Origin: Rhodoferax sp.
GTDB taxonomy: Bacteria > Pseudomonadota > Gammaproteobacteria > Burkholderiales > Burkholderiaceae_C
Assembly (NCBI GenBank): GCA_019449595.1
Contig: JAGRPL010000004.1
Location: forward strand, 1,178,001-1,242,000
Direction of reading: 5' to 3'
Length of the DNA: 64,000 nucleotides
Of this stretch, positions 1 through 54,570 are shown piece after piece. Made by a program: the position numbers and the translations under genes. The notes under the pieces were generated by a model. It ran no database searches and had not been told where the DNA came from. It saw nothing but the letters and a program-made list of their open reading frames with translations. How positions within the stretch are numbered: the first letter of the stretch is position 1; each line of letters starts with the position of its first letter.

Positions 1-2791
1 CGTCGGTCGCAATTCCCGATGGCACGATGAACCCGGCACGCCCGTTGGGTGAAATTGCTGCAAAGAAACTCTCAGCAAACAGAGCGTAGGTGTTGACGTC
101 ACCCACACCGGTGAGCGGATAGCGGCCGCTGTCGTGCGCGTAAAGGCTAGCGGCTTCAGCGCCACGGCGGGCAGTGATGAAATCGTCAAACAAACGCATT
201 TCAGCGCGGTTGGGCGGGCTCAAACCTTCAGCCGCTTCTATGTCGGGGTATAGGGTGTGAAGCAGCAGGCCCTGGCGCAGCAGTTCGATGCGCTTGGCGC
301 GTTCGGCCTTGTTTTTGGCGGCAGCAACCAAAGGGCTACGTGTGGCAAAGAATTCTTCCTCTTGTAGCTTGATGCGCTCCCACGGCGGATTGCCGAGCAT
401 GACGGCAAAGCCGCCCTTTGCCGCTACATGCGGGAAGGCTAACCACCAGTGGAACACGCTGTGGGTGCGGCACAGGTCGTGCGCAGCCTGAGCCAGCTCG
501 GGCTTGGCCGATTGGTGCGGATTTGGGTGCAACAGGCCCCACAGGTAGCCCGACAGGGGGATTTGCCCTTGCCCTTGTGGGACTTTTGGCGCCAGAAATG
601 CGGCCACGTAGGTATCGGCCAATTTGGCCAGGGTACTTTGCTCCGCATGGTGGTGTGCTCGGGCCCAGGCGCTACGCTTTGTGGCAATGCCGCCCAGAGT
701 GTCGTCTGCAAGATGCTCCACGGCGTTGGCGTCTTGCACCAGCGTGGTAGCGGCAAACAGGTCGTTTGCCACCACCTGCTTCCAGCTTTTCAGCTCGGCT
801 TTGTTTTGCTTCTTCAGGCCAGCAGCTACCGTCTTGTCATCGCCACTCAGCACGGCGTAGGCTGCGTCGGGGATACCATTTTCCAGAATCTTGGGGTCCA
901 GAACGCCTAGCAGGGCATCGCCCACTTGCAGGTGGTGGTCGATGAAGGTCAGCGGCCGGTCTGGGGTATAGGCCTCCAGCCACAGGGCGGTCTTGGCCAG
1001 CGCAATGGCCATGGGGTTCTTGTCCACGCCGTAAATGCAGTGGCCCACCACGTCGCGCAGGGCATGGCGGTAGTCGGCCGGCGTGGGGGCACCGCCTATG
1101 GCGGCAGCGCGCAGCTTGGCCACCTCGTCTGCCAAACGGCGAGCGGCGGCCAGCAGAAAGTGGCCACTTCCGCAGGCCGGGTCGCACACAGTTAATTCCA
1201 GCAGGGCCTGCACTGGGTTGGTGGGATGGACCCGCACGGTTTGTTCAATGACAGGCTCCAGCGCGCTCTTGATGAGTTCCTGCACTAGGCTGTCAGGTGT
1301 GTAGTAGCTGCCGGTGAGCTTGCGGGCATTGCCTTTGTTGCTGGCGTCGTCCTCATCCCCCACAAAGGTCAGGCGGGCGGCATGGGGCTGACTCAGATGT
1401 TGCAGGTCGGGCACCAGTTCCAGCAGGCTTTCGTACACACTGCCCAGCTCTTCTGCACCCATGTCGCGGTAGTTGACCCGGGTCAGCCCCGTGGGCTGGC
1501 GGAAATAGCCCAGCTCAAACACAGCGGCCAGCAGGTGGCGATTGTCTATGTGTGCCGCATTGAGCAACGGACATTGTTCTGTGGCAAACAGTCCACCCAA
1601 GGCAGGCAGTCCCAAGGCAGGCTGGCCGGTAGCCAGCCCGTTAAAGGTGATGCTAAGGGCCTGCCAGAGGTCGCTGTGGGTGTCGTGGGCGCTGCGGCGC
1701 ACGGCGCGCTCGCGCAACCATGTGAGGCTGTAGCCCTGCCAGTAGCGTTGCTGCTGCTCTTCAGTGGCGTCGGGCGTGAAGATTAGAGAGTGCCCAGTAC
1801 TCGGGTCAGTGCGGTCTTCCACCGTAGCTAGGAAGATGAAGCGATACACCAAGCTGAGCAGTTCTTCAAAGAAGGCCTGTTTGGTGGCACTGCTTGTGTC
1901 GGGGTGCTGCAGTTGGGCGCGCAGTTCAGCGTTGGCTGGGTGGCTGATGAAACCGGTGCCCAGGTTGCGCAGGGCCTTTTCCACCTGGAAGCGTAGGTTC
2001 ATTCGAACCGTCTCGCCGCTCTTTTGGCCCGCGTTGCGCCACCGCTCCCAGGGGCAGTCGGTGGGGTCGGTCACACTGCCGCTAGGCAGGGTTTTGCCAA
2101 ATCGACTGGAATGGGCCAGTAGCCAGAAGGCGGTGAAGTCCGCGTACAGCTCTTCGGTAAAGATGGCCTCAAGGTCCACCTCCACGTAGGCCGGTCGCGT
2201 CAAGCTAGGGTTGTCGCGCAAGATACGCAGCTTCAGCCCGTTGGTGACGATGGCCCACAAGGCGTTGTCAGAGGCGTTGAGCGCCTCTTGAGCAAGCATG
2301 TAGGGGCTGCGTTTGCGGGTGCGGCCAGTCTCAGTATTGGTGTCGCCAAAACGTTCGGCAGCTTGGTCCAGCGGCTGGTCATGCCCCGCCATGATGACCG
2401 GCAAGCGGCCGCCCAATGCGGCGTGGCCAATGTTGTAGGTATGTTGGCCGCTAGAACCTGCCACGCTGCTCACGCTGTTGAGGTCGCCCATGCCCAGGAC
2501 GTGGCGGCACAGGGGCAGTAACCAAACCAATTCGGTCGTCTGATGGGCACGGGCGTCTTGCCGAGTGCGTTGCTGCTGGAAGTCTTGCCACAAGTGCTGG
2601 GCAATTTTGAAGTGGCGGGCGATTTCGTCACGCAGCTTCAAGCCCCTGGGAATGTCGTAATGCACCTCGGTCTGCTCGGTGGCTTCGGGCACAGCAAGGG
2701 TGGTCAAGCGGGTGAGTTCTTCGGCCGGAATCAGGCCGCCCTCAATACGAATGGCAGTGTAGGCGAGTTGTTGGATGTGCTTCTTGGCCAT
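1..2791 (-). CDS. Eco57I-family N6-adenine DNA methyltransferase, DrmMI/PglX-like (3' end cut by window)
   Basis: This reading frame starts at the ATG at 2791 and stays open to the window edge, giving about 930 residues without a stop. The SAM-binding motif DPACGSGHF lies near residue 537 and the catalytic motif NPPW at residues 801-804, the order expected of gamma-class N6-adenine methyltransferases of the Eco57I/PglX/DrmMI type. The 500 residues before the motif form the long helical N-terminal part usual in this group. The start lies 2 bases after the stop of the SNF2 helicase gene, so the two are surely co-transcribed. The protein probably methylates host DNA to mark self in a restriction-like defence system. 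Whether it is fused to a specificity domain cannot be seen because the C-terminus is missing. Confidence 0.85.
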   Translation of the reverse strand, partial: MAKKHIQQLAYTAIRIEGGLIPAEELTRLTTLAVPEATEQTEVHYDIPRGLKLRDEIARHFKIAQHLWQDFQQQRTRQDARAHQTTELVWLLPLCRHVLGMGDLNSVSSVAGSSGQHTYNIGHAALGGRLPVIMAGHDQPLDQAAERFGDTNTETGRTRKRSPYMLAQEALNASDNALWAIVTNGLKLRILRDNPSLTRPAYVEVDLEAIFTEELYADFTAFWLLAHSSRFGKTLPSGSVTDPTDCPWERWRNAGQKSGETVRMNLRFQVEKALRNLGTGFISHPANAELRAQLQHPDTSSATKQAFFEELLSLVYRFIFLATVEDRTDPSTGHSLIFTPDATEEQQQRYWQGYSLTWLRERAVRRSAHDTHSDLWQALSITFNGLATGQPALGLPALGGLFATEQCPLLNAAHIDNRHLLAAVFELGYFRQPTGLTRVNYRDMGAEELGSVYESLLELVPDLQHLSQPHAARLTFVGDEDDASNKGNARKLTGSYYTPDSLVQELIKSALEPVIEQTVRVHPTNPVQALLELTVCDPACGSGHFLLAAARRLADEVAKLRAAAIGGAPTPADYRHALRDVVGHCIYGVDKNPMAIALAKTALWLEAYTPDRPLTFIDHHLQVGDALLGVLDPKILENGIPDAAYAVLSGDDKTVAAGLKKQNKAELKSWKQVVANDLFAATTLVQDANAVEHLADDTLGGIATKRSAWARAHHHAEQSTLAKLADTYVAAFLAPKVPQGQGQIPLSGYLWGLLHPNPHQSAKPELAQAAHDLCRTHSVFHWWLAFPHVAAKGGFAVMLGNPPWERIKLQEEEFFATRSPLVAAAKNKAERAKRIELLRQGLLLHTLYPDIEAAEGLSPPNRAEMRLFDDFITARRGAEAASLYAHDSGRYPLTGVGDVNTYALFAESFFAAISPNGRAGFIVPSGIATD

Positions 2792-2793
2792 GC

Positions 2794-5619
2794 TCAAACT
2801 CCCGCGGTGGCGGGCACCAAAACATACACACCCATCACGTCAACGGGCAAACTGGCTGTGACTTGGTAATTGCCACGGGCCTCAGCGGCTTCGCGCACGC
2901 GGCGGTGGTCGGCCAAAAGGGCCTGGGCACGTGCTTTGGCTAAGTCCTCCAGGGCGCTCTGCCATCCAGGCAGACTTTCTATTGCTTGCTGGATGTGGCG
3001 GTCGCGGATGACGGGGGGCATGTTGCGAACGGCCTCTGTGCCGAGCAGGCTACGAGCATCGTTGAGGCTGAGTTCAGCTAGCCCATCGGTACCCGACGCG
3101 CACACGGCAACGGTTTCCTCACACAGCATCAGCCGCGTATGGCCTTCGCGGGTGACGCTGAGCTGGTGGCGCAAGCGCAGCAGCAAGACCGTGGTTTTAA
3201 GCTGGATGTTGCCAACAAATGCGGCACCAGCACGTGCCACGCCATCGGCATCCTCGTATTGGCTGTCCAATGCCTGCTCTAGCAGGGTATCGGCCAAGGC
3301 CACCACCAGCGGATGGGTACGCTGGATGAGCACAGCGCCCTGGGCGGCGGGCTGTTTGAAGTCGATGCGCAGAGTGCTCGCGAGCCCTTCTGCCGCCAAG
3401 CGCTCTTTCAAGGCTGGGGGCAATTCACCCAAGGGGGCTTTGAAATGGCCTTTGTAGGCCTCTAGGCCGGCCCCTAGCTTGGACATGGCGCGGATGACGA
3501 AGCGTTGAACCTCCTCTGGGCCGCCCAGTACAGCAGCGGATTTACGCCATTCCGGGAGTACGTCCTCAGGCTTGAGTCGACGCTGGGCAAAGATTGAGCG
3601 GTTCTTGGCGGCCTTTTCGCGGGCACTTTGCCACGCGATTTCAATCTGTTGTGCAGGTTCGCCAAAGTCGAAGCCAATTTGCGCTTGCTGCCCAACCGTT
3701 TTGTGCTTTCGCAGCAGCACGGCATTGAGCAGAGCCTGTGTGAGTTTGCCCTCGTCATCGGGCATGGGCACCAGCACACCCAGCTCTTTACGGATGCTTT
3801 CGGCCTTGCGCAGGATGACATGAAGCACGGCACCGTCGACCGGGTTGTCCTCTCCGTAGAGCATGGTGCTGCGCACCTCCTTAGCCTGCTGGCCAAAACG
3901 GTCAACACGACCCTCCCGTTGTTCGTGGCGGGTTGGGTTCCAACTCAGGTCGTAATGCACTACCGCAGTGAAGAGCCCTTGCAGGTTGATACCTTCGGAC
4001 AAGCAGTCAGTAGCAACCAGGATGCGCTGCTCGGTGACACCCAGCTCGGCCACGGCGGCTTCGCGCTCACCGGGAGTAAGCTCACCGGTCACCGCCTTGA
4101 CGGTGGCGTTCTTGAATTTGCCCCGCAGGAAATCGGCCAGGTAATGGGCCGTGGCAATGTAGCGGCAAAACACCACTGGCTGGAAGCCCTCTTTGACTAG
4201 CCCTTGCAGGTGGTCGTAAAGCTTGGCCAATTTGGGGTCGTTTGCGGCACCGGCCAATTTTTCGGCGGCAGAAATCAGGTCTTGAAGACGGGCCGAGTCC
4301 TCGGTCTGCGCAGCGGGCTCGATATCGTCAGTGGACAGGGCATCGTCCAGGCCATCCATGACGCGTTCACTGGCTTGGGCTTCGAGCGCCTCCAATGACA
4401 GGTCATCACCCTCTTGCTGACCACCTTTTAGCCGTGTGCGTAGAGCGTTGACTGCTGCTTGCGGAGATGAAGAAATACAACGCAGCAGTGCCAAGGCAGC
4501 CCACCAGTTCATGCGCTGTTCGCGCTGGCCTTTGCCTTCAGAGCGCTCGACCAGTTCGCGGGCGTAGTCGAGAACGTCGTTGAACAGTTGCCCCCAGGCA
4601 CCGGTCAAACGGTAGGTAATTTCCGCCGTCTTGCGGTCGGGGAACATACTGGTGTCTTGCCACTCGGCAATGTCCGGGCGGCGACGCTGGACGAAATGGC
4701 GCGACAAATCGTCTCGCAAGTCGGTTCGAGCGCCTGGCGGCAAGTCTTTTAGCTGGGTGAAATCAGTGCGCAGTAGGCCCAGCAAGTTGAAGAAGGCGTC
4801 TTCATCGCCACTGTGCGGTGTGGCAGTGAGCAACACCATGTGGCGCTGGACGTTTTCTGCCAGACCTTTGAGCAACTGATAGCGCTGCTGACGGCCCTGT
4901 CCTCCTTGGGTGCAGGTGTGGGCTTCGTCCACGATGACGAACTCGGGGCAGAAGCGTTGAAAAGCCTCGCGACGGCGGTCGGACTTGATGTAGTCCAGAC
5001 TGACCACGGTATAGGGGTGAGCGTCGAACACAGATGTGCCGGGGGGCAAGTCTCGCTCCAACCGATTGGCCGTGCTGGTGCGCACCACCACGGCCTGAAT
5101 GTGGAATCGTTGTTCCAGTTCACGTTGCCACTGCTCGCACAAATGGGGCGGACACAACACGGCCATGCGCTGGATTTCTCCTCGGTCGAGCATTTCCCGG
5201 GCAATCAGGCTGCCCTCAATGGTCTTGCCGATACCCACGTCGTCGGCAATTAGCAGACGAACGGTGGGCTGCTTCATGGCCATCAACAGCGGCACCAACT
5301 GGTACGCACGCGGCTCCACCGCAATGTTGCCGAAACTGCGGAACGGGCCAGCACCGCTTCGCAGCTTGAGCTGCAACGCGTCCATAAGCAACTGACTGGC
5401 TGAATGGTTGCGGGCTTGTTCGACAGTAGGCCATGGAAAAGTCGCCGGCCCTACGGGTTGGCGCTCAAGCGGCAAGTAGATGAGGGATTCATCTTTTTCG
5501 CCGCCACCCAAAGGGCGCAAGTGCAAGGTATCGGACGTGGATTCGGGCAGCACAATCCATTCGCGGCCACGGGCCGAGACAAGACTGCCGGGGTAAAACT
5601 CAGCAACGGGAGCGTTCAT
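2794..5619 (-). CDS. drmD: SNF2-family helicase, DISARM DrmD-like
   Basis: The 941-residue protein is a superfamily 2 SNF2/HepA-type ATPase. Walker A is seen as DDVGIGKT at residues 126-133, the DEAH box at 231-234, the TATPHS motif at 265-270, and a helicase C domain with the motif REGRVDRFGQ at about 560-570. The N-terminal phrases GREWIVLPES and GPFRSFGNIAVEPRAYQLVP match what I remember of DISARM DrmD proteins. It sits between the large helicase and the methyltransferase with gaps of 2 bases on each side, so all three form one operon. The likely role is DNA translocation or remodelling during recognition of foreign DNA. The DrmD name is family-level recognition, not a search result. Confidence 0.8.
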   Translation of the reverse strand: MNAPVAEFYPGSLVSARGREWIVLPESTSDTLHLRPLGGGEKDESLIYLPLERQPVGPATFPWPTVEQARNHSASQLLMDALQLKLRSGAGPFRSFGNIAVEPRAYQLVPLLMAMKQPTVRLLIADDVGIGKTIEGSLIAREMLDRGEIQRMAVLCPPHLCEQWQRELEQRFHIQAVVVRTSTANRLERDLPPGTSVFDAHPYTVVSLDYIKSDRRREAFQRFCPEFVIVDEAHTCTQGGQGRQQRYQLLKGLAENVQRHMVLLTATPHSGDEDAFFNLLGLLRTDFTQLKDLPPGARTDLRDDLSRHFVQRRRPDIAEWQDTSMFPDRKTAEITYRLTGAWGQLFNDVLDYARELVERSEGKGQREQRMNWWAALALLRCISSSPQAAVNALRTRLKGGQQEGDDLSLEALEAQASERVMDGLDDALSTDDIEPAAQTEDSARLQDLISAAEKLAGAANDPKLAKLYDHLQGLVKEGFQPVVFCRYIATAHYLADFLRGKFKNATVKAVTGELTPGEREAAVAELGVTEQRILVATDCLSEGINLQGLFTAVVHYDLSWNPTRHEQREGRVDRFGQQAKEVRSTMLYGEDNPVDGAVLHVILRKAESIRKELGVLVPMPDDEGKLTQALLNAVLLRKHKTVGQQAQIGFDFGEPAQQIEIAWQSAREKAAKNRSIFAQRRLKPEDVLPEWRKSAAVLGGPEEVQRFVIRAMSKLGAGLEAYKGHFKAPLGELPPALKERLAAEGLASTLRIDFKQPAAQGAVLIQRTHPLVVALADTLLEQALDSQYEDADGVARAGAAFVGNIQLKTTVLLLRLRHQLSVTREGHTRLMLCEETVAVCASGTDGLAELSLNDARSLLGTEAVRNMPPVIRDRHIQQAIESLPGWQSALEDLAKARAQALLADHRRVREAAEARGNYQVTASLPVDVMGVYVLVPATAGV

Positions 5620-5621
5620 GT

Positions 5622-8600
5622 TCAGTTTTTCTGGCTGGAGCCAAACAGGTCAGCATTGGCCTTGAAGATGGCAGGCCACTGGTCTTGTTCTTTGGGGAAA
5701 CGCACAACGATGAGCCCCAAGTCTTCCAGCTTGCGGTTGGCTTCGGCGTCCTTGGTCTTTTGACTGTCGGAGTCGTGGTGGGGACCGTCGATAAATACAG
5801 CCAGGCTGAAATCGTCGTAGTAAAAGTCGGCATTAACCCCTGCGGCGGTCAGCGTGTGCTGGGCCCGGTCGGGTTTCAGGTAGCCATGTTCGTCCACATG
5901 AGCGAGCCAGGCTTTTTCCAGTGAGCTGGAGGACAAGCGCTCCAACTCCGCACTATGCTGCTCGGGTGCACGGCCATGGGAGCCAAGCGCTGAGGTGGAT
6001 TCTGTCAGTCGGCACAAGATTTCCAGTAACTGTCCACCGGCTTGCTTGTCTTGGCGGTCAATCAGAGGATGGTCCGGTTGGTTGTAGTACGACAGCAGAC
6101 AGCGGTAGCAGCCTGCCTCGCACAGTGGCTGGCCATGCTCATCCACCTCCTGGGTGAGCTCGGACTTCTTCCATCTCTTGCCTTCAGCAGGCTCCTGGAA
6201 ATGCATGATGCTGAGGGCCTCTGCTGCCACCGCCTGCAGAGCATGAGGTTCAGTGGCTATGCGCGTGAGCACACCTGCACCACCCTCTGCAGCCTCGAAG
6301 AACAGGATGGATTGGCGGTTGTCACGGCCAGGCAGCGGTTCTGCGACAAGCTCGCTTTCCTCCAACTGGTATACCGCCTCAATGCCTCGCTTCAAGGCGT
6401 ACTGCAAAGTGGTCATGGTGGACTCTTCGAGCACACCTAGACGGTGATGCGGCATCACCACGAGGATATTTCTTCGGTCTTCCACGAACGGGACAATGCG
6501 TTGTGGCGGGGTTTTGTCAGGTGGCGCATCCTCCCCTTCGCCGTCACCTGCTTCGTTTTCTCCGCCGACCCAGTGCCCCGTGACGGGGTTAATCATGAAC
6601 CCCAGAACCTTCTTGTCCTTGCGCCGCTTCCAGCCGTAGTTCATGCGCCAGATGGTGGCCGCAGGGCCGTATTGGAGCTCCAGCAGTGGACCCTGTTCAT
6701 CAGACACGATGGAGGTGACCATCTGCAGCTTTCCATCGGCCTGGGCGAACTGCAAGGTGGTCTGCATTTCGTACCCCTGGCGCGTCCGCTCTTCTTCGTT
6801 GGCAGTAATACGCTCAGCCCGTTTAGTGGAAACGTTTTCGATGCGGTAAAGGTTCTTGACTTCTTCTGCGCCGTCCAGTGAAGCGCCACAGGACACACAC
6901 CGGTCGGCGTCACGTTGGGTTCGGAAATGGCCGTACCCGCACATGGGGCAGAGGCGCGCAACTTCCGTGGGTAACTTGGCACCATCGGCCACCTGGTCTT
7001 GCCCGCTGATGGTGAGCAAGGCTTTGGTGACTCGGTACTGACTGCCCTCGTGATAGATGAGGCTATAGGGCCCGAACTCGCTCAAGGCCAAGAAACGGGG
7101 ACGCGAAAGAAAGCTCTCACGCCCGATATTGCCGCGGCGCGCTGGGATGTAGGCCATCAATGGCAGGCGGGGGAAGTTGTAGCCCGGGAGAAAGCCTTGG
7201 CTGGCCAAGTATCGGTAAGTGTAAAAGTCGCTATTGAAGGCGCTATCACCTGCCAGAAGCAGGTCCCGCTGCTTGCGTGCCTCATTGTGGCGCTGCTGAG
7301 CCTCTCGGCGCTCACGTTCGCTGGCAGCCGGATTGTTTTCCTTCTTGTAGTTGAGCTCGATGGCTTGCGCAGTGGCCAGATACAGGTCACGCCAGCGGTT
7401 CAGCGCATTGTCAAATTCTTTGAACGCACGCTGGAACACAGATTCTGGCCAAGTTGGGGTGAACCAGGGAGCACGTTCAGGTGTAAGTTCATCCTTGAGC
7501 ATGCCCAGCACGGCCAGGCCGCGCTCATGAGCCTTGCGCTGAGCAGCGGGCTTGGACAGCTCGTCAGCCAAGTCTGTGGCGAGGGGCAAGTTCTGCGGTT
7601 TTTCCATGTCGAGCAGGTCGCGAATGCTGTTGCCCAGCTTTTTGCCCGTCTCGGCCAGCCAGATGGCCTGCAAGTGGCTTTGCACCAGCTCTCGATTCGC
7701 CAAGTCCAGCGTTGGGGCGTTGACCTGACCGTGCACCATGCGAACAGGGTCACGGAAGTAATACTGGTCGTGTGGTGACTGGCTGGCACAGTAGGTAATG
7801 ACCAAGGCAGGCTGCCCTGCACGGCCGGCGCGGCCGCTGCGCTGCGCGTAATTGGCAGGCGTAGGTGGCACATTGCGCATGTACACGGTGTTGAGGGACG
7901 AGATGTCCACGCCCAGCTCCATCGTGGGTGAACAGAACAGCACGGGCAGCCATTCAAGTTCATGCCCTTGCTTCTCTCGCCATTCCTCCCGGTCTTTGTC
8001 GGTGAAGCGGAAACGGGCCTCTCGCTCCATGCGGTCGTCTTGTTCGACTTGCGCGGTGTGTTCGCGGGCCTCGAAATCGAACAGGCGATGCGCGGGTTCA
8101 CTCAACAGCTTGGCAATGTTTCGGTATAGGTTGCGGAAGAATGCGTTTTCGTGGGCTTGGCTACTCGCGCTGCCATTCCCAACATGCCACAACATGGCAC
8201 TCCCGTTGAGCTGCCATCCAGTCAGTCCAAAGTCGGTTTCTTCCTTTCGGACCAGCCCATAGCTTTCTGCGGCCTTGAGCAAGGCCCAGACCACATCGCC
8301 ATAGGTGGCATCCTTGATTTCTTTGTAATACGGGTTGCCGCCACCCCAGGTGCTACCCTTCTTGAGCTCTTTCCCAAGGCGGGAACGGCTGGAGCCGATG
8401 ACCAGGTACTCTTCCAGCTTTTGCCGTTTGATGCGCGCGCTGTTGTCGTCTTTCGGGCGGCTGGTGACAAACCACTTGGCCGGTACCGGGCGTTCGTCTT
8501 CGGTGAAGCCCCAAGGTTCGCACAGGTTGGCGAAACTGACCGTTCGCAACTGGTCCAGTTCCGTTCGGTCCAAGTAGCGGGATGCAACGCACAAACCCTC

Positions 8601-10946
8601 ACGCATAAAGCCAAACAGCAAGCGCAGCACATGCGCACGCTCGGCCGGCCTTGCTGCTCGCAGTACCTGCGGAGCTTCGCTCCACTCCTGTTCGTCAGCG
8701 GCCAGGTCTTCAATGTCTTGGTACTGGATTTGCATTAACCCCAGTTGCTCCAAGTTAGGGTTGTTGAAGCGCCAACCGCGGCGCAGGTCGTAAAACGACC
8801 GGTACCCCAAGATAGACCGCATGGCGTCTTGCACTTGACGGCGGCTGTTGCCCTTTACCTCGGGCTGTTGCATGTACTCCGCACGCACCGCATAGTCGTC
8901 GCGATGAAAGCCCAGCGCCTCAAACACAGCATTGGCGATGTCTTTTTCTGACAGGGTTTGCCCAGGCGCAGCTTCCAACGCAGAGAACAATGCGGCCCGA
9001 GTCAGGAGAACCTGCAGAAAGTCATTGAAGTGGCCTGCCTGCAAGGCAGCGTCCTGGCGGTTATCTGAGAAACCGAGGACCTTTTTGGCCTCAGGTGAGA
9101 GCTCATGGTCTTGCTCGTAAAGGTAGCGCAGGGAAGCCAAGGTCAGCATGGTGGTCGCTGAACTCCGGCCTTCGCCAGACAGGGATGTCAGCCGTAGCGC
9201 GTCCTTGCCGTTGCTGGTATGGGTAACACCGCAAGATAGACAGAAGCGGAAGCTGCCAGGGATGAACCAGGCCAACATGCCCCCCTCGTGGGTCAGCACA
9301 CCATCGGACCGAACTTTGACGGCCTGTGGCACATACTTCTTCTGGGTCGGCTTGACGCGCCATTCCCCGTCGGCACGCTCTTCTACCCAGGTTTCGGGGT
9401 AGTTCTCGGGATTGGCATCATCCCAAACGCCAGACATATCGGGCATCAGGTACCCAGCCTTGACACCGTCGTCCTCATGCTCGCGCTCTTCGATGCTGCG
9501 CACCGAGAAGGTCCGGCCATCTACAGCATCTTGGTCCCATACCGGAATGTATTCCTGACCACAATCTCGGCAGAAGTGAACGTTATAAAGGTTACGGCTG
9601 CGGTCTCCAGAGACGAATTGCTGGCCGTCCAGTGTGACCGCGCGTTGACCTGGAGCCTCCAGGGTGCTGAATACCTTGCCTCCACCCGAGATGAATTGGT
9701 GCAGCTTGAAAGCGAACAGTGACTTGCCTGAAGCGTCAGTGACGTTATACGCCCGCAGCAGGAAGCGCTGCAAATATTCGCTGCACCGCTCCTTGTCCAG
9801 CACGGTGGAATCAGCCAACAGTTGGGCGGCTTGGTCCAGGGTTTTAGGTTTGGCACGACGGGGTTTGCCACTCTCGTAGGTCAAACCCAGTGTCAGCTCA
9901 ACCCATATGGACACTGGGTGCTGCGCCATCGACGGGAAATCAAGGTCTTGAGGCACCCCAGCCTCAATCGCAGCGGCCAAGCGAGGAGTGATTGTTTCGA
10001 GAGTTTCAGTCTCAGGCGTGGTGCGCTTGAGGGTTTCGGTGATGATATTGGTCACCGGAATCTTGGTGCCGAACAGGCGGCTGGCTACCTCTGCCACCTT
10101 GGCATTGCGCACCATCTCGGTACCGTCAGTTGCCATGGTGGCAGACGTTCCAATGCAGACCAACTGGTCCGCCAAGGCCTGACGAACCCTGCGCACCAGC
10201 AGCGCCACATCCGCACCCTGGCGACCACGGTACGTGTGCAGCTCGTCCAGAACCAAGAACCTAAGCCCCTTGGCATTGGCAATCACTTGCTGGTCAATGG
10301 CGTTTTGCCGGGTTAGCAACAACTCCAACATCATGAAGTTAGTCAGCAAGATGTCCGGCGGATTGGCCTTCATGGCCTCCCGCTCTTCGGTGCTCTCTTG
10401 GCCCGTAAAGCGACCGAATGTGACGGGTCGCGTACCTGGGTCTGCACCAAGGAATTTCTTGAGCTCCTCAAGCTGGCTATTGGCCAGGGCGTTCATCGGG
10501 TAGACCACGATGGCACGAGTGCGAGGGGTTTTGTCTACCTGCCTAGCTTTGAGGCAATGGTCAATGATGGGAATAAAGTACGAGAGGGACTTGCCCGAAC
10601 CGGTACCCGTTGTGAGCACATAGCTTTCGCCTGCAGACGCCAGACTGATGGCTTCCACCTGGTGCTTGTACAGAGGCAATGTTTGCCCAGTGGAGGAAGC
10701 GCTCTTTCCGAACCGAAAAATCTGGGCGCAGGCTTGACTTAGCTGACCCGCATCACAAAGCGACTCTACCGTGCCGCCAGGTTGGAAGTTGGGATTGACC
10801 TGAACCAACGGTTCCGGCCAGTACTTCTGAGAGGCGTACTCACCGTCCACAAAAGCACGGATGTCATCTGCCTTGATGCGCGTGAAGCTGCGCGTGAACT
10901 CAGCGTACTCGTTGACAAGGTTCTGGCGAAATTCGAAGACGTTCAA
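5622..10946 (-). CDS. Giant DEAD/DEAH helicase with DUF1998-type Cys cluster and C-terminal nuclease-like domain
   Basis: The 1774-residue protein opens the defence operon. Walker A TGTGSGKS is at residues 113-120, the DELH box at 234-237 and motif III TSAT at 267-270. The second RecA lobe, with QRSGRAGRAGQ, lies near residue 1080, far from the first, as in MrfA/DruE-type helicases. Two CxxC pairs occur near 465-570 (HFCRDCG, FCLSCG), another two near 1330 (CPMCG, CVSCG), and a GCYRCLLSYYNQPDH cluster typical of DUF1998/MZB regions near 1610. The last 75 residues contain DFYYDDFSLAVFIDGPHH followed by a KDAEANRKLEDLGLIVVRF-like segment, the pattern of DUF559/Vsr-like PD-(D/E)XK nucleases. It looks like a fusion of DrmA and DrmB functions, or a DruE relative, with a nuclease tail. 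Confidence 0.8.
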   Translation of the reverse strand: MNVFEFRQNLVNEYAEFTRSFTRIKADDIRAFVDGEYASQKYWPEPLVQVNPNFQPGGTVESLCDAGQLSQACAQIFRFGKSASSTGQTLPLYKHQVEAISLASAGESYVLTTGTGSGKSLSYFIPIIDHCLKARQVDKTPRTRAIVVYPMNALANSQLEELKKFLGADPGTRPVTFGRFTGQESTEEREAMKANPPDILLTNFMMLELLLTRQNAIDQQVIANAKGLRFLVLDELHTYRGRQGADVALLVRRVRQALADQLVCIGTSATMATDGTEMVRNAKVAEVASRLFGTKIPVTNIITETLKRTTPETETLETITPRLAAAIEAGVPQDLDFPSMAQHPVSIWVELTLGLTYESGKPRRAKPKTLDQAAQLLADSTVLDKERCSEYLQRFLLRAYNVTDASGKSLFAFKLHQFISGGGKVFSTLEAPGQRAVTLDGQQFVSGDRSRNLYNVHFCRDCGQEYIPVWDQDAVDGRTFSVRSIEEREHEDDGVKAGYLMPDMSGVWDDANPENYPETWVEERADGEWRVKPTQKKYVPQAVKVRSDGVLTHEGGMLAWFIPGSFRFCLSCGVTHTSNGKDALRLTSLSGEGRSSATTMLTLASLRYLYEQDHELSPEAKKVLGFSDNRQDAALQAGHFNDFLQVLLTRAALFSALEAAPGQTLSEKDIANAVFEALGFHRDDYAVRAEYMQQPEVKGNSRRQVQDAMRSILGYRSFYDLRRGWRFNNPNLEQLGLMQIQYQDIEDLAADEQEWSEAPQVLRAARPAERAHVLRLLFGFMREGLCVASRYLDRTELDQLRTVSFANLCEPWGFTEDERPVPAKWFVTSRPKDDNSARIKRQKLEEYLVIGSSRSRLGKELKKGSTWGGGNPYYKEIKDATYGDVVWALLKAAESYGLVRKEETDFGLTGWQLNGSAMLWHVGNGSASSQAHENAFFRNLYRNIAKLLSEPAHRLFDFEAREHTAQVEQDDRMEREARFRFTDKDREEWREKQGHELEWLPVLFCSPTMELGVDISSLNTVYMRNVPPTPANYAQRSGRAGRAGQPALVITYCASQSPHDQYYFRDPVRMVHGQVNAPTLDLANRELVQSHLQAIWLAETGKKLGNSIRDLLDMEKPQNLPLATDLADELSKPAAQRKAHERGLAVLGMLKDELTPERAPWFTPTWPESVFQRAFKEFDNALNRWRDLYLATAQAIELNYKKENNPAASERERREAQQRHNEARKQRDLLLAGDSAFNSDFYTYRYLASQGFLPGYNFPRLPLMAYIPARRGNIGRESFLSRPRFLALSEFGPYSLIYHEGSQYRVTKALLTISGQDQVADGAKLPTEVARLCPMCGYGHFRTQRDADRCVSCGASLDGAEEVKNLYRIENVSTKRAERITANEEERTRQGYEMQTTLQFAQADGKLQMVTSIVSDEQGPLLELQYGPAATIWRMNYGWKRRKDKKVLGFMINPVTGHWVGGENEAGDGEGEDAPPDKTPPQRIVPFVEDRRNILVVMPHHRLGVLEESTMTTLQYALKRGIEAVYQLEESELVAEPLPGRDNRQSILFFEAAEGGAGVLTRIATEPHALQAVAAEALSIMHFQEPAEGKRWKKSELTQEVDEHGQPLCEAGCYRCLLSYYNQPDHPLIDRQDKQAGGQLLEILCRLTESTSALGSHGRAPEQHSAELERLSSSSLEKAWLAHVDEHGYLKPDRAQHTLTAAGVNADFYYDDFSLAVFIDGPHHDSDSQKTKDAEANRKLEDLGLIVVRFPKEQDQWPAIFKANADLFGSSQKN

Positions 10947-11416: not shown

Positions 11417-12553
11417 CTAGACACCGGTCATAGCCAGGCAGTGAAAGGCATTAGCAACGTCTTCCCAGAAAACTGCCTCCCCCTCTTCTCTCACCAGTCC
11501 CCGCTCCCGCAGGTCGCTGCGCGCACGGTTAAAGGCATTCCGCTTTCCGCTATCGCTCTTGGCTGAGGTTCTAGCATAGAAGGAAGTGCGCCAAGCCTCG
11601 ATATCGCCGGACATATGGCACCCCGGAGCTGCAGCACAAAGCACCTCGGCAAGCGACTGAAGTCCGAGTAGCTGCTGGTCACTGAGCGGCTCATTCTCCG
11701 TTCCATTCGCCTCCTCCTTCAGCGCTCCAGGCCTGATATGACAGCTGGTAATTGGGTCGCCGTCGCTATCGATTCCTAGCACTACCGAATCCAATGCAAA
11801 TTGAAACACCCTGCCGTCTTGGCCATCCTTCACCTTCTGACTCTCCCATGTGCGCTCACCCTTGCTACGCTTAACCACAATCGATGCATCCACACTGGGA
11901 ATCATCGATGAGTGACCTCGAGGCCCTCTGTCGGCGTCCTTCCCAATATGGTGGGCAAGGATGACCAAACCACCGCTAACTCCCGCAATATGGCTGCACG
12001 ATTGCAAAATCAATCCTATGTGTTGACTCCCGTTTTCGTCGCCTCCCGGCATAGCCCGATTCAGGGTGTCAACGATTACCACCGGAGAGCCGAGATGTGC
12101 AAGCTCCGATTTCAGCGCACTTGCAATCTTGATGAGCGCGGAGACATTCGCAACATCAAAGAGGCTGAACTGCTCCACGATAAATCGAACATTCTCAGGA
12201 AAACTGCGGCCACTTCCCTTTTCCCAGGCTTGGATACGGTTGGAGAATCCTGCAGCCCCTTCCAGGCACAGGTAGATAACCGGCGAGGCAAATGTGAGGT
12301 GACCAAACCATGCCTGCCCCTCCGCAATGGCGCAGGCCAGGTCAAGCAGCAGGAAGCTTTTGGCAGCGCCCGATGCACCGTAAAACAAAGCTGTTCCAGT
12401 ATCCGGCAACAACCCCTTCACTTTCCAGCTCAAGGGTGGTTGCGATTTCAAGTCTGCAGGGCGCAACAACTTCAAACAGTCAACCGATTCTGCAAAAAGC
12501 GATAGGGACTGTTGTGCGGGATTCGAATTGTTTGTGGAGGCTGAAATATTCAT
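11417..12553 (-). CDS. RepA-like RecA-fold ATPase/helicase (AAA family)
   Basis: The 378-residue protein has a RecA-type ATPase core of the kind found in IncQ-type RepA helicases and related mobile-element ATPases. A P-loop GASGAAKS follows the phrase TALFYGASG; the Gly normally before the Lys is Ala here. Walker B and its surroundings read VVIVDTLNRAMPGGDEN, followed by VILAHHIGKD, both typical of the RepA/AAA_25 group. The C-terminal 100 residues look like a winged-helix segment. The start overlaps the stop of the upstream HTH gene by 4 bases, so the two are translationally coupled. In the island it probably serves replication or maintenance of the excised element; a role in defence is less likely. 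Function is inferred from family. Confidence 0.75.
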   Translation of the reverse strand: MNISASTNNSNPAQQSLSLFAESVDCLKLLRPADLKSQPPLSWKVKGLLPDTGTALFYGASGAAKSFLLLDLACAIAEGQAWFGHLTFASPVIYLCLEGAAGFSNRIQAWEKGSGRSFPENVRFIVEQFSLFDVANVSALIKIASALKSELAHLGSPVVIVDTLNRAMPGGDENGSQHIGLILQSCSHIAGVSGGLVILAHHIGKDADRGPRGHSSMIPSVDASIVVKRSKGERTWESQKVKDGQDGRVFQFALDSVVLGIDSDGDPITSCHIRPGALKEEANGTENEPLSDQQLLGLQSLAEVLCAAAPGCHMSGDIEAWRTSFYARTSAKSDSGKRNAFNRARSDLRERGLVREEGEAVFWEDVANAFHCLAMTGV

Positions 12554-19964: not shown

Positions 19965-21395
19965 CTATGCCGCTTTCCTGTTTCGGAAATCCCAGGCAAT
20001 CACATTGTGTCCACGTGCCTCCTCAGAAGCCTCGGCTGTCTCGAGTGGCGCGGCCTCTTCAGGTTTCGCGGAAACGGCCGCCTGGAGTGCCGTCAAAGGT
20101 GTCAGAGGCGTACGCACGGGCAGCTCAGTGGTACCAACAGCCAGTGCCTGCACTTTTTCCTTGTTAAGGCGCGCAGCACGCCGGGCATTTAAATGGGCCT
20201 CTGGGTCTTTCGGGAACTCTGCCGGCATGACCGTCACGCCGGCGTTGTCACTGGCTTTGTCCAGGGCATCTTCAAGGTCCTTACCCACCAGGTCGACATA
20301 GAACTGCGCGGTGGCTATGCCATCGTGCCCCAGCACTTGCTTCAATTGATGGGCACTAAGACCCCGACGAACCCAATCAGTCGCCCCCAGGTGCCTCAGG
20401 TCTCTGAATTGCAATTTGGGCAGATTGCATTTTTCGCGCAGGCGGTCCCAGGCACTATTGATAGCCGACTTGCTCATCGGAAAAATCTTCCCTCCGGCCG
20501 CCTGGGGTAGCCCAGCGAGAATCTTCTGAACCTCGCGGCTCAGCACATATGGACGTTGTCCAGTCTTGGTCGGCAACATGGCATTGCGGTTTTCCACCGA
20601 GGTGTTTTCCCAGGTCATATTGCACAGCGTGTCCAGGCGCAAGGTGGACTCCTTGGCGGTCAGCACCAGGGGCATGAAGTATGGGTTGTCGCAATTGAAC
20701 AGCTCCCGATAGAACGTACTCTTTTGCTCTTCCGTAAGGTGTACAAATCGGCGCTTGGATTTCCAAAGTTTGATACCCAAACAGGGGTTGGCAAAGCCCT
20801 TCCAGTTCATCTTGTCCACGTTGTTGAAGAAGGCCTTGAGCAGTGCAATCTCCTTTTGGATGCTGCTGTCGGACAGACCGTCATTGCGCATTTGCGTATC
20901 AAAGCCCTTGATATCCGCTGGCGAAATCTGGCTGCAGCGCATGTTGGCCAGCTTGTGCATGTACGCATAGGTACCCGCCCGCGCAGCGCGGCGCTTATCC
21001 ACATAGGCTTTGAACTCGGGTGAAAGTACTTTGGGTTCTGCAGGCTCCACTTTGACACCGCCCTCTGGCGTTTTGACAGTCACCAGAGGTGGCATTCCTG
21101 CCCCCTCCAGGTAGTGGTTGATGCGGGTCAGTTCCTGGTCTACCCCTTCCTTGGCCACACTGAAGTGGCAGGCGTAGTGGTTCAGTGCCTGCGCCAGGGT
21201 AGTGCGTGTGGGGCCATCCAACACTGGGTCGTGCTCTGAATTGGCGTTGGCCAACTTGTCGATACCCCACTGCACCGCATCTGCATAGGACACAAAGTCC
21301 CGAAATGGTCTTGTGCCATTCGCCAGGGTCACTTGCATGCGCCACATGTCGCGGTACTTGAATGGTTTGGCGGAAGTGCATCCCTTCTTAGGCAT
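19965..21395 (-). CDS. int: Tyrosine recombinase/integrase
   Basis: The 476-residue protein is a phage-type integrase. The catalytic core shows Arg in ESTLRLDTLCNMTW, then FRDLRHLGATDW (box II Arg; the first His is replaced by Arg, as in many integrases), LKQVLGHDG, and Tyr in TAQFYVDL. An N-terminal arm-binding and SAM-like region occupies the first 230 residues or so. A C-terminal tail of about 90 residues after the Tyr is Ala/Glu-rich and not part of the core. It lies next to tRNA-Lys(CTT) and reads away from it. It should catalyse integration and excision of the island at that tRNA. Confidence 0.9.
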   Translation of the reverse strand: MPKKGCTSAKPFKYRDMWRMQVTLANGTRPFRDFVSYADAVQWGIDKLANANSEHDPVLDGPTRTTLAQALNHYACHFSVAKEGVDQELTRINHYLEGAGMPPLVTVKTPEGGVKVEPAEPKVLSPEFKAYVDKRRAARAGTYAYMHKLANMRCSQISPADIKGFDTQMRNDGLSDSSIQKEIALLKAFFNNVDKMNWKGFANPCLGIKLWKSKRRFVHLTEEQKSTFYRELFNCDNPYFMPLVLTAKESTLRLDTLCNMTWENTSVENRNAMLPTKTGQRPYVLSREVQKILAGLPQAAGGKIFPMSKSAINSAWDRLREKCNLPKLQFRDLRHLGATDWVRRGLSAHQLKQVLGHDGIATAQFYVDLVGKDLEDALDKASDNAGVTVMPAEFPKDPEAHLNARRAARLNKEKVQALAVGTTELPVRTPLTPLTALQAAVSAKPEEAAPLETAEASEEARGHNVIAWDFRNRKAA

Positions 21396-21736: not shown

Positions 21737-21812
21737 TGGTGGGATCTGAGAGATTCGAACTCTCGACCTACGGATTAAGAGTCCGCTGCTCTACCAGCTG
21801 AGCTAAGATCCC
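21737..21812 (-). tRNA. tRNA-Lys (anticodon CTT)
   Basis: The minus strand folds into a cloverleaf of 76 bases: acceptor stem GGGATCT/AGATCCC, discriminator A, encoded CCA. The anticodon loop is CTCTTAA with anticodon CTT, and the T arm contains GTTCGAATC. The gene is complete, as expected when the island's att core restores the 3' end. Confidence 0.95.
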
Positions 21813-52344: not shown

Positions 52345-54570
52345 CTAGCGGCGCCGGGCCGACCGCACACCACTGAGCTCCGCCACAATGCCCAGCACCT
52401 TGGTCAGACGCCCGGAATCGGCCACTTCCACGGTGAAGGTCATCCAGGCAATGCCGCGGATGGACTGGGTCTGCACCCCGATCACGTTCATCTTTTCCTT
52501 GGCAAACACCTCGGAAATGTCGCGCAGCAGCCCTTGCCGGTCGTTAGCCTCGATCGCCACGTCCACCGGGTAGACCGAGCCCACCCCTGCGGACGCGCCG
52601 CCCCACTCCACCTCGATCACGCGGTCGCCACTGCGGGTGACCATGTTGCGCAGGTTGGAGCAATCGGCCCGGTGCACGCTCACGCCCTTGCCCCGAGTGA
52701 CAAAACCGCAGATGGCGTCGGGTGGCGCCGGCTTGCAGCACTTGGCCAGCTGCGTCATCAACGAATCCACCCCCACCACCAGCACACCGCCCTTGGCGGC
52801 GTGACTGGGTACGCGGGGCTTCTTGAGCAGCACGAAATCATCTTGCGGTTGCGCTGGCTCGGGAGGGCGCAGCACGCTCTCGATGTTGCGCAAGGAAAAC
52901 TCGTCCTTGCCCACCACCTCGAACAACGCGTCGGCCGAATTGAAGCCCAGCTGCGATGCCAGATCGTCGAGCTTGATGGCAGTCTTGCCCTCGCGCTGCA
53001 GCAGTTTTTCCACCGCTTCGCGACCCTTGGCCACCGTCTCGCCCATGGCCTGGGCGTTGAACCAGGCGCGCACCTTGGCACGCGCCCGCGGGCTGGCCAG
53101 AAAGCCCAGCTCCGGGTTGAGCCAGTCACGCGACGGGCCGCCCTCCTTGGCCACCGTCACCTCCACGGTCTGGCCGTTCTTCAAGGGGGTGTTGAGCGGC
53201 ACCATGACGCCATCCACGCGCGCCCCGCGGCAGCGGTGGCCCAGGTTGGTGTGCACGCTGTAGGCAAAGTCCACCGCCGTGGCACCCTGGGGCAGCTCCA
53301 CAATGGCCGCATTGGGGGTCAGGACGTAAATGCGGTCTTCAAAGAAACCAGCGCCCTGCCCACCCGACAGATCGCGTTCCCAGGCCAGCAACTGGCGCAG
53401 CACGGCAATCTTGGCGTCATATTCACCGCTGGCCGACACCCCGGCGTAGCCCTTGGTGCCCGCCTCCTTGTAGGCCCAGTGGGCGGCCACGCCGTTTTCG
53501 GCATGGTCGTGCATGGCTTGGGTGCGCACCTGGATCTCGATGGGCTGGCCCGAGGCGTCCCGCACCACGGTGTGCAGCGACTGGTAACCGTTGGCCTTGG
53601 GCCGGGCAATGTAGTCGTCGAACTCATCGGCGACCGGAGTGAAATGGCTGTGCACCCAGCTCAGAGCGGCATAGCAATCCGGCACGGTGGGCACCACAAT
53701 GCGCAGGGCGCGAATGTCGTACACCTGCGCGAACCCCAGCGACTTGCCGCGCATCTTCTTGACAATGCTGTAGATGTGCTTGGGCCGCCCCTGCACGGTG
53801 GCCGCAATGCCCTGGCCGGCCAGGTCCGCCGCCAGCTGCAGGCGCAGCTTCTCCACCCGCGCCTCCCGCTCGGTGCGCTTTTCGTCCAGCAGGCGCGCCA
53901 CCTCCCGGTAGGTATCGGGCTCCAGGAAGCGAAAGGCCAGGTCTTCCATCTCCCACTTGATTTCCCAGATGCCCAGCCGGTTGGCCAGCGGCGCAAACAC
54001 CTGCAGGGCCTCGCTGGCCACCCCGGCAGGCACAGGCAGCTTGGTCGCCGCAAAATGCCGCAGGGTCTGCAGGCGCGAGGCCAGGCGCAGCATCACCACC
54101 CGCAAATCGCGCGAGAACGCCAGCAGCATCTTGCGCACACTCTCAGTCTGAGCCGCCACCGTCTGCGCCATGGGAATGGGCGTGCTGGCATGGCCGGCCG
54201 ACACCTGCGCCAGACGGGCCATGCGCTGCACGCGCACCAGCTTGGTGGTCTCCAGCGCCAGGTCGGCAAAGTTTTCGCCAAACGCCTTGGCAATGACTTC
54301 GTGCGGCTTGTTCAGGTGGTCACAGGCATACACCAGGTAGCTGGCCGCCTGCATGGCCTGCGATCCGCCAATGGTCTTGAGAATGGCGGCCACGGCGTCG
54401 GCGTGGGCCAGCACGTTTTCGCCGGTGTCCAGCGTCTGGCTGGCCAGCAGCGGCTCGGCAAAGGCGCGCGCGCGCGCCAGGGCATCCACCTGCTCGGGCA
54501 GGCTTTGCGCCGTGGCCGCGATCACCGGAGGCGGTGCGCTGGTGGAGTGTTCGGACGACGAACTTTTCAT
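52345..54570 (-). CDS. relA: (p)ppGpp synthetase, RelA type
   Basis: The 741-residue protein has an N-terminal HD-fold region without the HD catalytic pair (YLVYACDHLNKPHEV in place of HDVVEDT), so hydrolysis is likely lost. The synthetase follows with VYDIRALRIVVPTVPDCYAAL and FDDYIARPKANGYQSLHTVV, then a TGS domain (VDFAYSVHTNLGHRC), helical and zinc-finger regions (LAKCCKPAPPDAICGFVT) and an ACT domain (DRQGLLRDISEVFAKEKMNVIGV). It makes ppGpp at starved ribosomes. Confidence 0.93.
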   Translation of the reverse strand: MKSSSSEHSTSAPPPVIAATAQSLPEQVDALARARAFAEPLLASQTLDTGENVLAHADAVAAILKTIGGSQAMQAASYLVYACDHLNKPHEVIAKAFGENFADLALETTKLVRVQRMARLAQVSAGHASTPIPMAQTVAAQTESVRKMLLAFSRDLRVVMLRLASRLQTLRHFAATKLPVPAGVASEALQVFAPLANRLGIWEIKWEMEDLAFRFLEPDTYREVARLLDEKRTEREARVEKLRLQLAADLAGQGIAATVQGRPKHIYSIVKKMRGKSLGFAQVYDIRALRIVVPTVPDCYAALSWVHSHFTPVADEFDDYIARPKANGYQSLHTVVRDASGQPIEIQVRTQAMHDHAENGVAAHWAYKEAGTKGYAGVSASGEYDAKIAVLRQLLAWERDLSGGQGAGFFEDRIYVLTPNAAIVELPQGATAVDFAYSVHTNLGHRCRGARVDGVMVPLNTPLKNGQTVEVTVAKEGGPSRDWLNPELGFLASPRARAKVRAWFNAQAMGETVAKGREAVEKLLQREGKTAIKLDDLASQLGFNSADALFEVVGKDEFSLRNIESVLRPPEPAQPQDDFVLLKKPRVPSHAAKGGVLVVGVDSLMTQLAKCCKPAPPDAICGFVTRGKGVSVHRADCSNLRNMVTRSGDRVIEVEWGGASAGVGSVYPVDVAIEANDRQGLLRDISEVFAKEKMNVIGVQTQSIRGIAWMTFTVEVADSGRLTKVLGIVAELSGVRSARRR

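Follow-up and report, generated by a model that had tools for sequence, protein, structure and literature searches.

The window analyzed in this study is a 64,000-nucleotide stretch of a Rhodoferax sp. genome (C13:1178001-1242000 in contig numbering), and its first 10,946 bases carry most of a three-gene defence operon on the minus strand. Gene 1 (5622..10946) encodes a YprA/DruE-like SF2 helicase of 1774 aa (ArmC-like), assigned by open reading frame (ORF) call, profiles, motifs and a tree. Gene 2 (2794..5619) encodes an SNF2/RapA-type helicase of 941 aa (ArmA-like; BrxHII/DrmD/DpdE-like), assigned by profiles. Gene 3 (2..2797) encodes the N-terminal 932 aa of a PglX/DrmMI/Eco57I-like N6-adenine methyltransferase (ArmB-like) and is open at base 1; leftward it reaches C13:1175605, and the complete methyltransferase is 1730 aa. 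These minus-strand ORFs lie where the initial annotation had placed three co-directional genes. Its 2-base gaps were found between genes 1 and 2, and between genes 2 and 3 only if gene 3 starts at an ATG two codons on (base 2791); from the TTG start the two genes overlap by 4 bases. After a 9-base gap, the methyltransferase is followed outside the window, also on the minus strand, by a fourth gene (C13:1173607-1175595, 662 aa) for an SMC/LmuB-like ATPase. We consider it likely that the two complete genes in the window, together with the first half of the third, belong to an ARMADA Type I operon with this fourth gene, and that the C-terminal tail of the methyltransferase and the ATPase form a portable cassette that would dock the ATPase onto the methyltransferase.

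The helicase was matched best by the DruE models of PADLOC (313 bits), and DrmA reached 48 bits. Pfam matches to DEAD, Helicase_C and MZB (PF09369, 33.5 bits; cut-off 24.2) were obtained, and CxxC pairs were located at residues 459, 569, 1333, 1350 and 1613. The MZB/DUF1998 match falls within the 1774-aa chain and is thus a fused module, so the earlier description of a 1774-residue helicase with DUF1998-type Cys clusters, joined in one chain as in DruE, was correct. Motif evidence places a Vsr/DUF559-like nuclease with an intact FIDGPHH motif at the C-terminus. The pattern ADFYY...FIDGPHH...VVRF is kept among close helicase relatives, and the DUF559 match scores 19.4 bits, slightly below the cut-off of 20.6. 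A PDB sequence search with the helicase returned distant helicases, and a scan of viral contigs yielded no helicase relative.

The SNF2 protein showed its best PADLOC match to DpdE (PDLC02853, 711 bits, nearly full length), with DrmD next (294 bits). Because PDLC02853 covers the protein, PADLOC may report ARMADA I as a partial Dpd system. The score against NCBIfam DISARM_DrmD was 339, under the cut-off of 610, so the label "DrmD-like" is valid only in the broad BrxHII/RapA/DrmD sense. The window part of the methyltransferase matched DrmMI (215 bits) and Pfam Eco57I (53 bits; cut-off 25.3), as its previous Eco57I/DrmMI-like naming implied, and carries the motifs DPACGSG (539) and NPPW (803). 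No match was found for the methyltransferase in a PDB sequence search.

The name ARMADA comes from a 2025 preprint, which presents the system as linking DISARM to Druantia; its main text describes the Type I operon as three genes: a YprA-like helicase with a C-terminal Vsr-type nuclease, next a BrxHII-like helicase and last a PglX-like methyltransferase (PMC12458937). As judged by order, domains and motifs, the window trio is ARMADA Type I and of a known kind. It has the same order, the fused DUF1998 part, the Vsr-type nuclease at the C-terminus of the helicase and no ArmD, but the operon differs in its additional SMC/LmuB-like gene and methyltransferase tail. The words SMC, Lamassu and LmuB have no occurrence in the main text of the preprint. 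The initial annotation had proposed a mixed DISARM/Druantia-like system of unusual composition; this proposal fell, since the trio already bears the name ARMADA Type I (PMC12458937) and is a named, standard system.

A mixed or degenerate DISARM system is extremely improbable. The SNF2 and methyltransferase genes do resemble the DrmD and DrmMI partners of DISARM class 1, but the window system is without separate DrmA, DrmB and DrmC, the helicase is far closer to the DruE than to the DrmA models, and the SNF2 protein stays under the NCBIfam DrmD cut-off. No drmA, drmB or drmC was found leftward of base 1, and this left flank already refutes the mixed-DISARM reading. BLAST of a DISARM DrmA/DrmB pair against the island ORFs gave a sole match, to 63 residues within the helicase. 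No PLD gene was found in the scanned part of the window, in agreement with the earlier statement; a weak PLD match lies outside, within the Mokosh MkoB gene. BREX PglZ and BrxC/PglY were absent among the proteins scanned, the unscanned island ORFs being small or overlapping scanned genes.

Two other assignments were dropped. The ARMADA Type II system of E. coli shares three homologous proteins with the window system, but its order is SNF2-methyltransferase-YprA-UvrD-type helicase (as in L122 and L124), which differs from that of the window. BLAST of the UvrD-type genes of L122 and L124 against the island ORFs revealed no counterpart of ArmD, the RelE-GajB-like fourth helicase. Druantia resembles the window system in that the helicase is matched best by DruE in PADLOC, and differs in that the window system has SNF2 and methyltransferase partners. 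BLAST with three references (from L116, L123 and L125) found neither STY4851-type proteins, which we take to be DruH, nor DUF4338 proteins, presumably DruA, in the island.

The helicase was present in 14 of 300 genomes of the same order (E <= 1e-50) and in 14 of 398 genomes of the phylum (E <= 1e-100), its own genome included in both. Twenty-nine helicase neighbourhoods were fetched (12 of 15 order-search matches, 11 of 16 phylum-search matches and 6 plasmids picked by hand). The order helicase, SNF2, methyltransferase on one strand was kept in 26 of these 29; L132 and L136 stop at the contig end after the SNF2 gene, and L134 is without partners. The conserved trio order is not due to chance. 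In a helicase tree of 27 rows, the window helicase grouped with 19 others from ARMADA Type I-like operons, among them a cyanobacterial one with reversed gene order, and was separated from the ARMADA II and Druantia helicases (three rows each); the reference rows were labelled by gene order and annotation, and the reference sequence of the preprint authors was not among them.

The Vsr catalytic motif was lost from the helicase in part of ARMADA I (L023, L026, L030, L031, L033-L037 and many of L062-L102). Such helicases were the only ones accompanied by HNH genes of the A. caldus/Mesorhizobium type, which were seen in 7 of 8 Vsr-lost vs 0 of 8 Vsr-intact loci found through the helicase (7 loci with short downstream sequence dropped). 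For loci found through the SMC gene, the same HNH type occurred in 15 of 25 Vsr-lost vs 0 of 29 intact loci (4 dropped; the 25 include the odd C-termini of L041, L059 and L095). These are raw counts with kinship not corrected for, and the HNH genes beside Vsr-lost helicases look like a nuclease replacement.

The relatives of the SMC gene were examined at 75 loci, taken from the best 80 of 167 matches in genome contigs, and 74 of these loci contained an SMC ORF. Among the 64 loci with at least 5 kb upstream, same-strand matches upstream were found for the methyltransferase in 62 and for SNF2 in 63. The SMC gene commonly abuts the methyltransferase, at -119 to +16 bases in most loci. The helicase and SMC searches of whole genomes each used 398 genomes drawn evenly, taken as the same draw since the handles agree. 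SMC matches (E <= 1e-40) were found in 8 of the 14 phylum genomes with the helicase, the genome of the window included, and in 0 of the 384 without it (Fisher 2e-13, kinship not corrected for). A viral-contig scan listed at least two SMC relatives among its matches, one of them L137; of two further scans, one gave only the L137 contig and the other nothing.

It is unlikely that the operon is an ordinary three-gene ARMADA Type I with the SMC-like gene as merely another defence-island neighbour. Such a neighbour would agree with the three genes of the operon in the preprint (PMC12458937), with the absence of the SMC gene from 13 of 23 operons of known status and with the other defence genes on the island, but it agrees poorly with the close abutment to the methyltransferase, with the failure, at the chosen thresholds, to find the gene in the 384 genomes that were negative for the ARMADA helicase, and with the methyltransferase tail that accompanies it in 10 of 10 operons. 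Because 13 of the 23 operons do without it, the core function of ARMADA I does not depend on the SMC module.

The ATPase alignment included 32 members of the 74 ORFs. The Walker A residues G63, H64, G67, K68 and T69 were kept in 32/32 members, as was the motif HD[CS]PREA. The residue after the Walker B aspartate was C (17) or S (15) in all 32, a position at which ABC ATPases have a catalytic glutamate. C366 was conserved in 32/32 and C376 in 31/32. For the L040 homologue, which shares 80% identity with the SMC protein next to the window, the AlphaFold2 model had a mean predicted local distance difference test score (pLDDT) of 88.1 and a predicted template modelling score (pTM) of 0.66. It shows ATPase strands and helices at both ends and a long coiled coil between them, with a turn at about 362-376. 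In this model, C366 and C376 are predicted to lie at the coiled-coil turn, the place of the zinc hook in Rad50-like proteins. A PDB sequence search with the SMC profile returned mostly coiled coils with weak E-values.

We regard it as quite improbable that the SMC gene and its neighbour form a separate Lamassu system beside ARMADA. The PADLOC LmuB models match 30 of the 32 SMC family members, and the protein size and altered Walker B recall LmuB, which PMC10586767 describes as a protein of about 650 aa that frequently has a zinc hook and a glutamate-to-glutamine change in Walker B. An SMC-like ATPase of about 650 aa with LmuB profile matches is a trait shared with Lamassu (LmuB) and Wadjet (JetC), but here the ATPase follows a tail-bearing restriction-modification protein, and neither a constant LmuA nor JetABD was seen. 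The gene after SMC varies between loci (S39, Drt1a, GmrSD, HNH, others or none), so no constant effector gene of the LmuA type adjoins it, and the gene before it is usually the tail-bearing methyltransferase.

The evidence for a cassette of tail and ATPase came from the C-terminus of the methyltransferase. The core of the window enzyme ends at residue ~1564 and is followed by an extra tail of ~165 aa. Tail length was counted as residues past the core end, and a profile spanning most of the enzyme was used solely to place that end. The test set comprised 23 operons of known SMC status that were found independently of the SMC gene, with the window locus excluded. The tail was 161-208 aa in 10/10 operons with the SMC gene, and at most 30 aa in 12/12 measurable operons without it (13 in total, L038 being unmeasurable). 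The 63 pieces measurable in the SMC-anchored loci had a median of 174; L110 reached 102, and a fragment of 88 aa in L083 had 8. Two ORFs (about 920-1010 and 500 aa) lying ~700 bases apart make up the methyltransferase in L128, L129 and L131, and the second ORF bears the core end and the tail.

The tail varied together with the ATPase. For 55 loci and 500 permutations, the partial correlation of tail and SMC distances given the methyltransferase core was r 0.89 (p 0.002), and that of tail and core distances given SMC was r 0.01 (p 0.42). The 27 nearest loci gave 0.91 and 0.02, respectively. The comparison pairs gave lower values: 0.16 (p 0.002) in all loci and -0.09 in the nearest for SNF2 vs SMC given core, and 0.19 and 0.39 for core vs SMC given SNF2. 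This set required a long methyltransferase ORF, a tail of at least 90 residues and near-complete SMC and SNF2 ORFs, and it leaves out L096, L097, L103 and duplicates. Judged by these distances, the tail follows the ATPase and not its own enzyme. Since recombination alone could make an adjacent tail and SMC gene co-vary without contact, the co-variation shows a cassette and not a contact.

The distribution of the SMC gene was followed on a tree of 25 SNF2 proteins (12 with and 13 without SMC). SMC presence needs 7 changes on this tree, at least 6 of them by well-supported branches, and its clustering barely exceeds that of permuted labels (102 of 500 shuffles equally low). The tail was measured in 23 of the 25 rows, and the L038/L118 switch falls outside, the tail of L118 (a locus found through its SMC gene) also being unmeasurable. 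As read from the tree, ARMADA Type I appears to have repeatedly acquired and shed the tail-ATPase cassette. L027, the closest relative by helicase (78% identical), has neither the tail nor the SMC gene. At its SMC position (L027:13530-14912) lies a gene for a dGTPase-like HD protein, which overlaps the tail-less methyltransferase.

The SMC gene was also found behind other restriction-modification systems. In L096 and L097, two contigs of one metagenome bin, SNF2 and a Type IIG enzyme precede it. In L103, a locus with neither a methyltransferase nor an SNF2 match upstream, a Type I HsdR-HsdM-HsdS set precedes it, and in L137, an IMG/VR contig, a Type III Mod-Res set. In the Type IIG, Type I and Type III loci, the protein preceding SMC extends 153-193 residues past its family profile. 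Less certain cases are L085 (partial Type IIG-like), L090 (partial, unassigned) and L143, where a second SMC copy of genome G459 adjoins a Mod-like gene and a helicase. The 1271-aa protein of L143 is labelled Type III Res from its helicase motif and Mod-like neighbour only; its PDB sequence search was empty and BLAST gave no significant match to the L137 Res.

These tails matched those of ARMADA: L096 to L087 (1.8e-44), the L103 HsdS to L087 (4.7e-8), the L137 Res to L026 (6.5e-17) and L143 to L131 (5.2e-24), with E-values for a set of 88. The seven non-ARMADA tails had no match among the methyltransferase cores. At 1e-5 (E-values scaled to 100,000 sequences), 80 cleanly cut tails clustered as 45, 18, 13, 3 and 1. 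The cluster of 45 is that of the window and holds ARMADA tails only, the cluster of 18 includes six non-ARMADA tails, and the cluster of 3 includes L137; the first two merge at 1e-3. Alignment of the window cluster with the mixed cluster by hhalign gave a probability of 96.6% (E 5.6e-10) vs at most 0.17% for ten column-shuffled decoys, and the other five cluster pairs tested gave 72, 41, 19, 1 and 0.2%. The tails had 0 matches to the C-termini of the 12 methyltransferases without SMC and 0 to 300 random segments from a pool with restriction-modification proteins removed. With methyltransferase ORFs in the pool, the random-segment control gave 66 matches, those printed being to L078, L087 and L101 segments.

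On balance, we lean towards a portable two-part module, a C-terminal docking domain of ~150-190 aa and an SMC/LmuB-like ATPase gene, that is plugged into mechanistically unrelated restriction-modification systems and would add a DNA-structure sensor or a loop/end clamp. Its hosts would be the ARMADA I methyltransferase, the Type IIG enzyme, the Type I HsdS and the Type III Res.

Besides the effect of recombination and the 13 operons without the module, several observations argue against the ARMADA assignment or the cassette. The Type I-like clade of the helicase tree, with support of 83/97, has several long branches. Of the nine SMC matches in the phylum search, G459:C171 and G639 contain stop codons, and G386 and G328 are partial. 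L141 (Paracoccus) has SMC and HNH genes with no recognizable methyltransferase upstream. The SMC protein next to the window is itself a weak match to LmuB (5e-5). Tail families C (13; 72%) and D (3; 19%) and the singleton have no secure link to the family of the window. Examples outside ARMADA are scarce: two Type IIG loci of a single bin, one Type I, one Type III and three less certain.

From gene content, order, motifs, co-occurrence, co-variation and tail homology, all read from sequence, we infer methylation, cleavage, docking and sensing as putative activities of the system. We propose that the methyltransferase would read its site and probably mark host DNA at a short motif, and that the SNF2 translocase and the YprA helicase-nuclease would translocate on and cut unmarked invading DNA. 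The extra C-terminal domain of the methyltransferase most likely docks the SMC-like ATPase. The docked ATPase may clamp or sense replicating phage DNA at its ends, branches or loops as a second check, and it may license the helicase-nuclease. As described in the main text of the preprint, ARMADA II stops phage and leaves the cell alive, all four genes are required, and so is the NPPW motif of its methyltransferase (PMC12458937). A passage of PMC13192584 states that DruE, a relative of the window helicase, loads on 3' single-stranded DNA.

Restriction-modification recognizes sequence, and SMC-like systems are thought to recognize DNA shape or topology. If the module is real, a movable adaptor joining both could account for the ability of ARMADA-like systems to act on many phages and still leave the host unharmed. 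The tail and ATPase could also serve as a marker for finding SMC-coupled restriction systems in genomes. In the literature on ARMADA/DISARM and on SMC-like/LmuB proteins with restriction, an SMC gene with ARMADA was undescribed in the texts found, supplements being outside the scope. The trio is already known; the tail-SMC module was not found in that literature and is hence regarded as new.

The operon lies on an island, as had been suggested. The island (C13:1157171-1199782, 42.6 kb) is bounded by exact 46-bp copies of the 3' half of tRNA-Lys(CTT). The right attachment (att) repeat is located at 21737..21782 (minus strand) in the window, and its exact copy lies ~42.6 kb leftward at C13:1157171-1157216. 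A tyrosine integrase gene (19965..21395, minus strand) adjoins the tRNA-Lys target at the right end. Between the integrase and the operon lies the gene for an AAA_25 ATPase (11417..12553, minus strand), which we take to be RepA-like and which was not counted in the defence system. At 53041-53132 of the window, ARAGORN called a tRNA with a four-base anticodon (ctgg), which is probably false.

On the island, same-strand genes for PDC-S39 (615 aa), Mokosh MkoA and MkoB, GmrSD_N and an HNH endonuclease come after the SMC gene. A variable cargo slot downstream of the SMC gene was seen across L040-L114. It holds a Drt1a-type reverse transcriptase in L040 and L104 (PADLOC), S39 in two loci, and an ORF of Drt1a-like length in L049, L052, L054, L056, L060 and L074. 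Where 4 kb or more of downstream sequence was available (58 loci), GmrSD was present in 9 and a same-strand HNH gene in 36.

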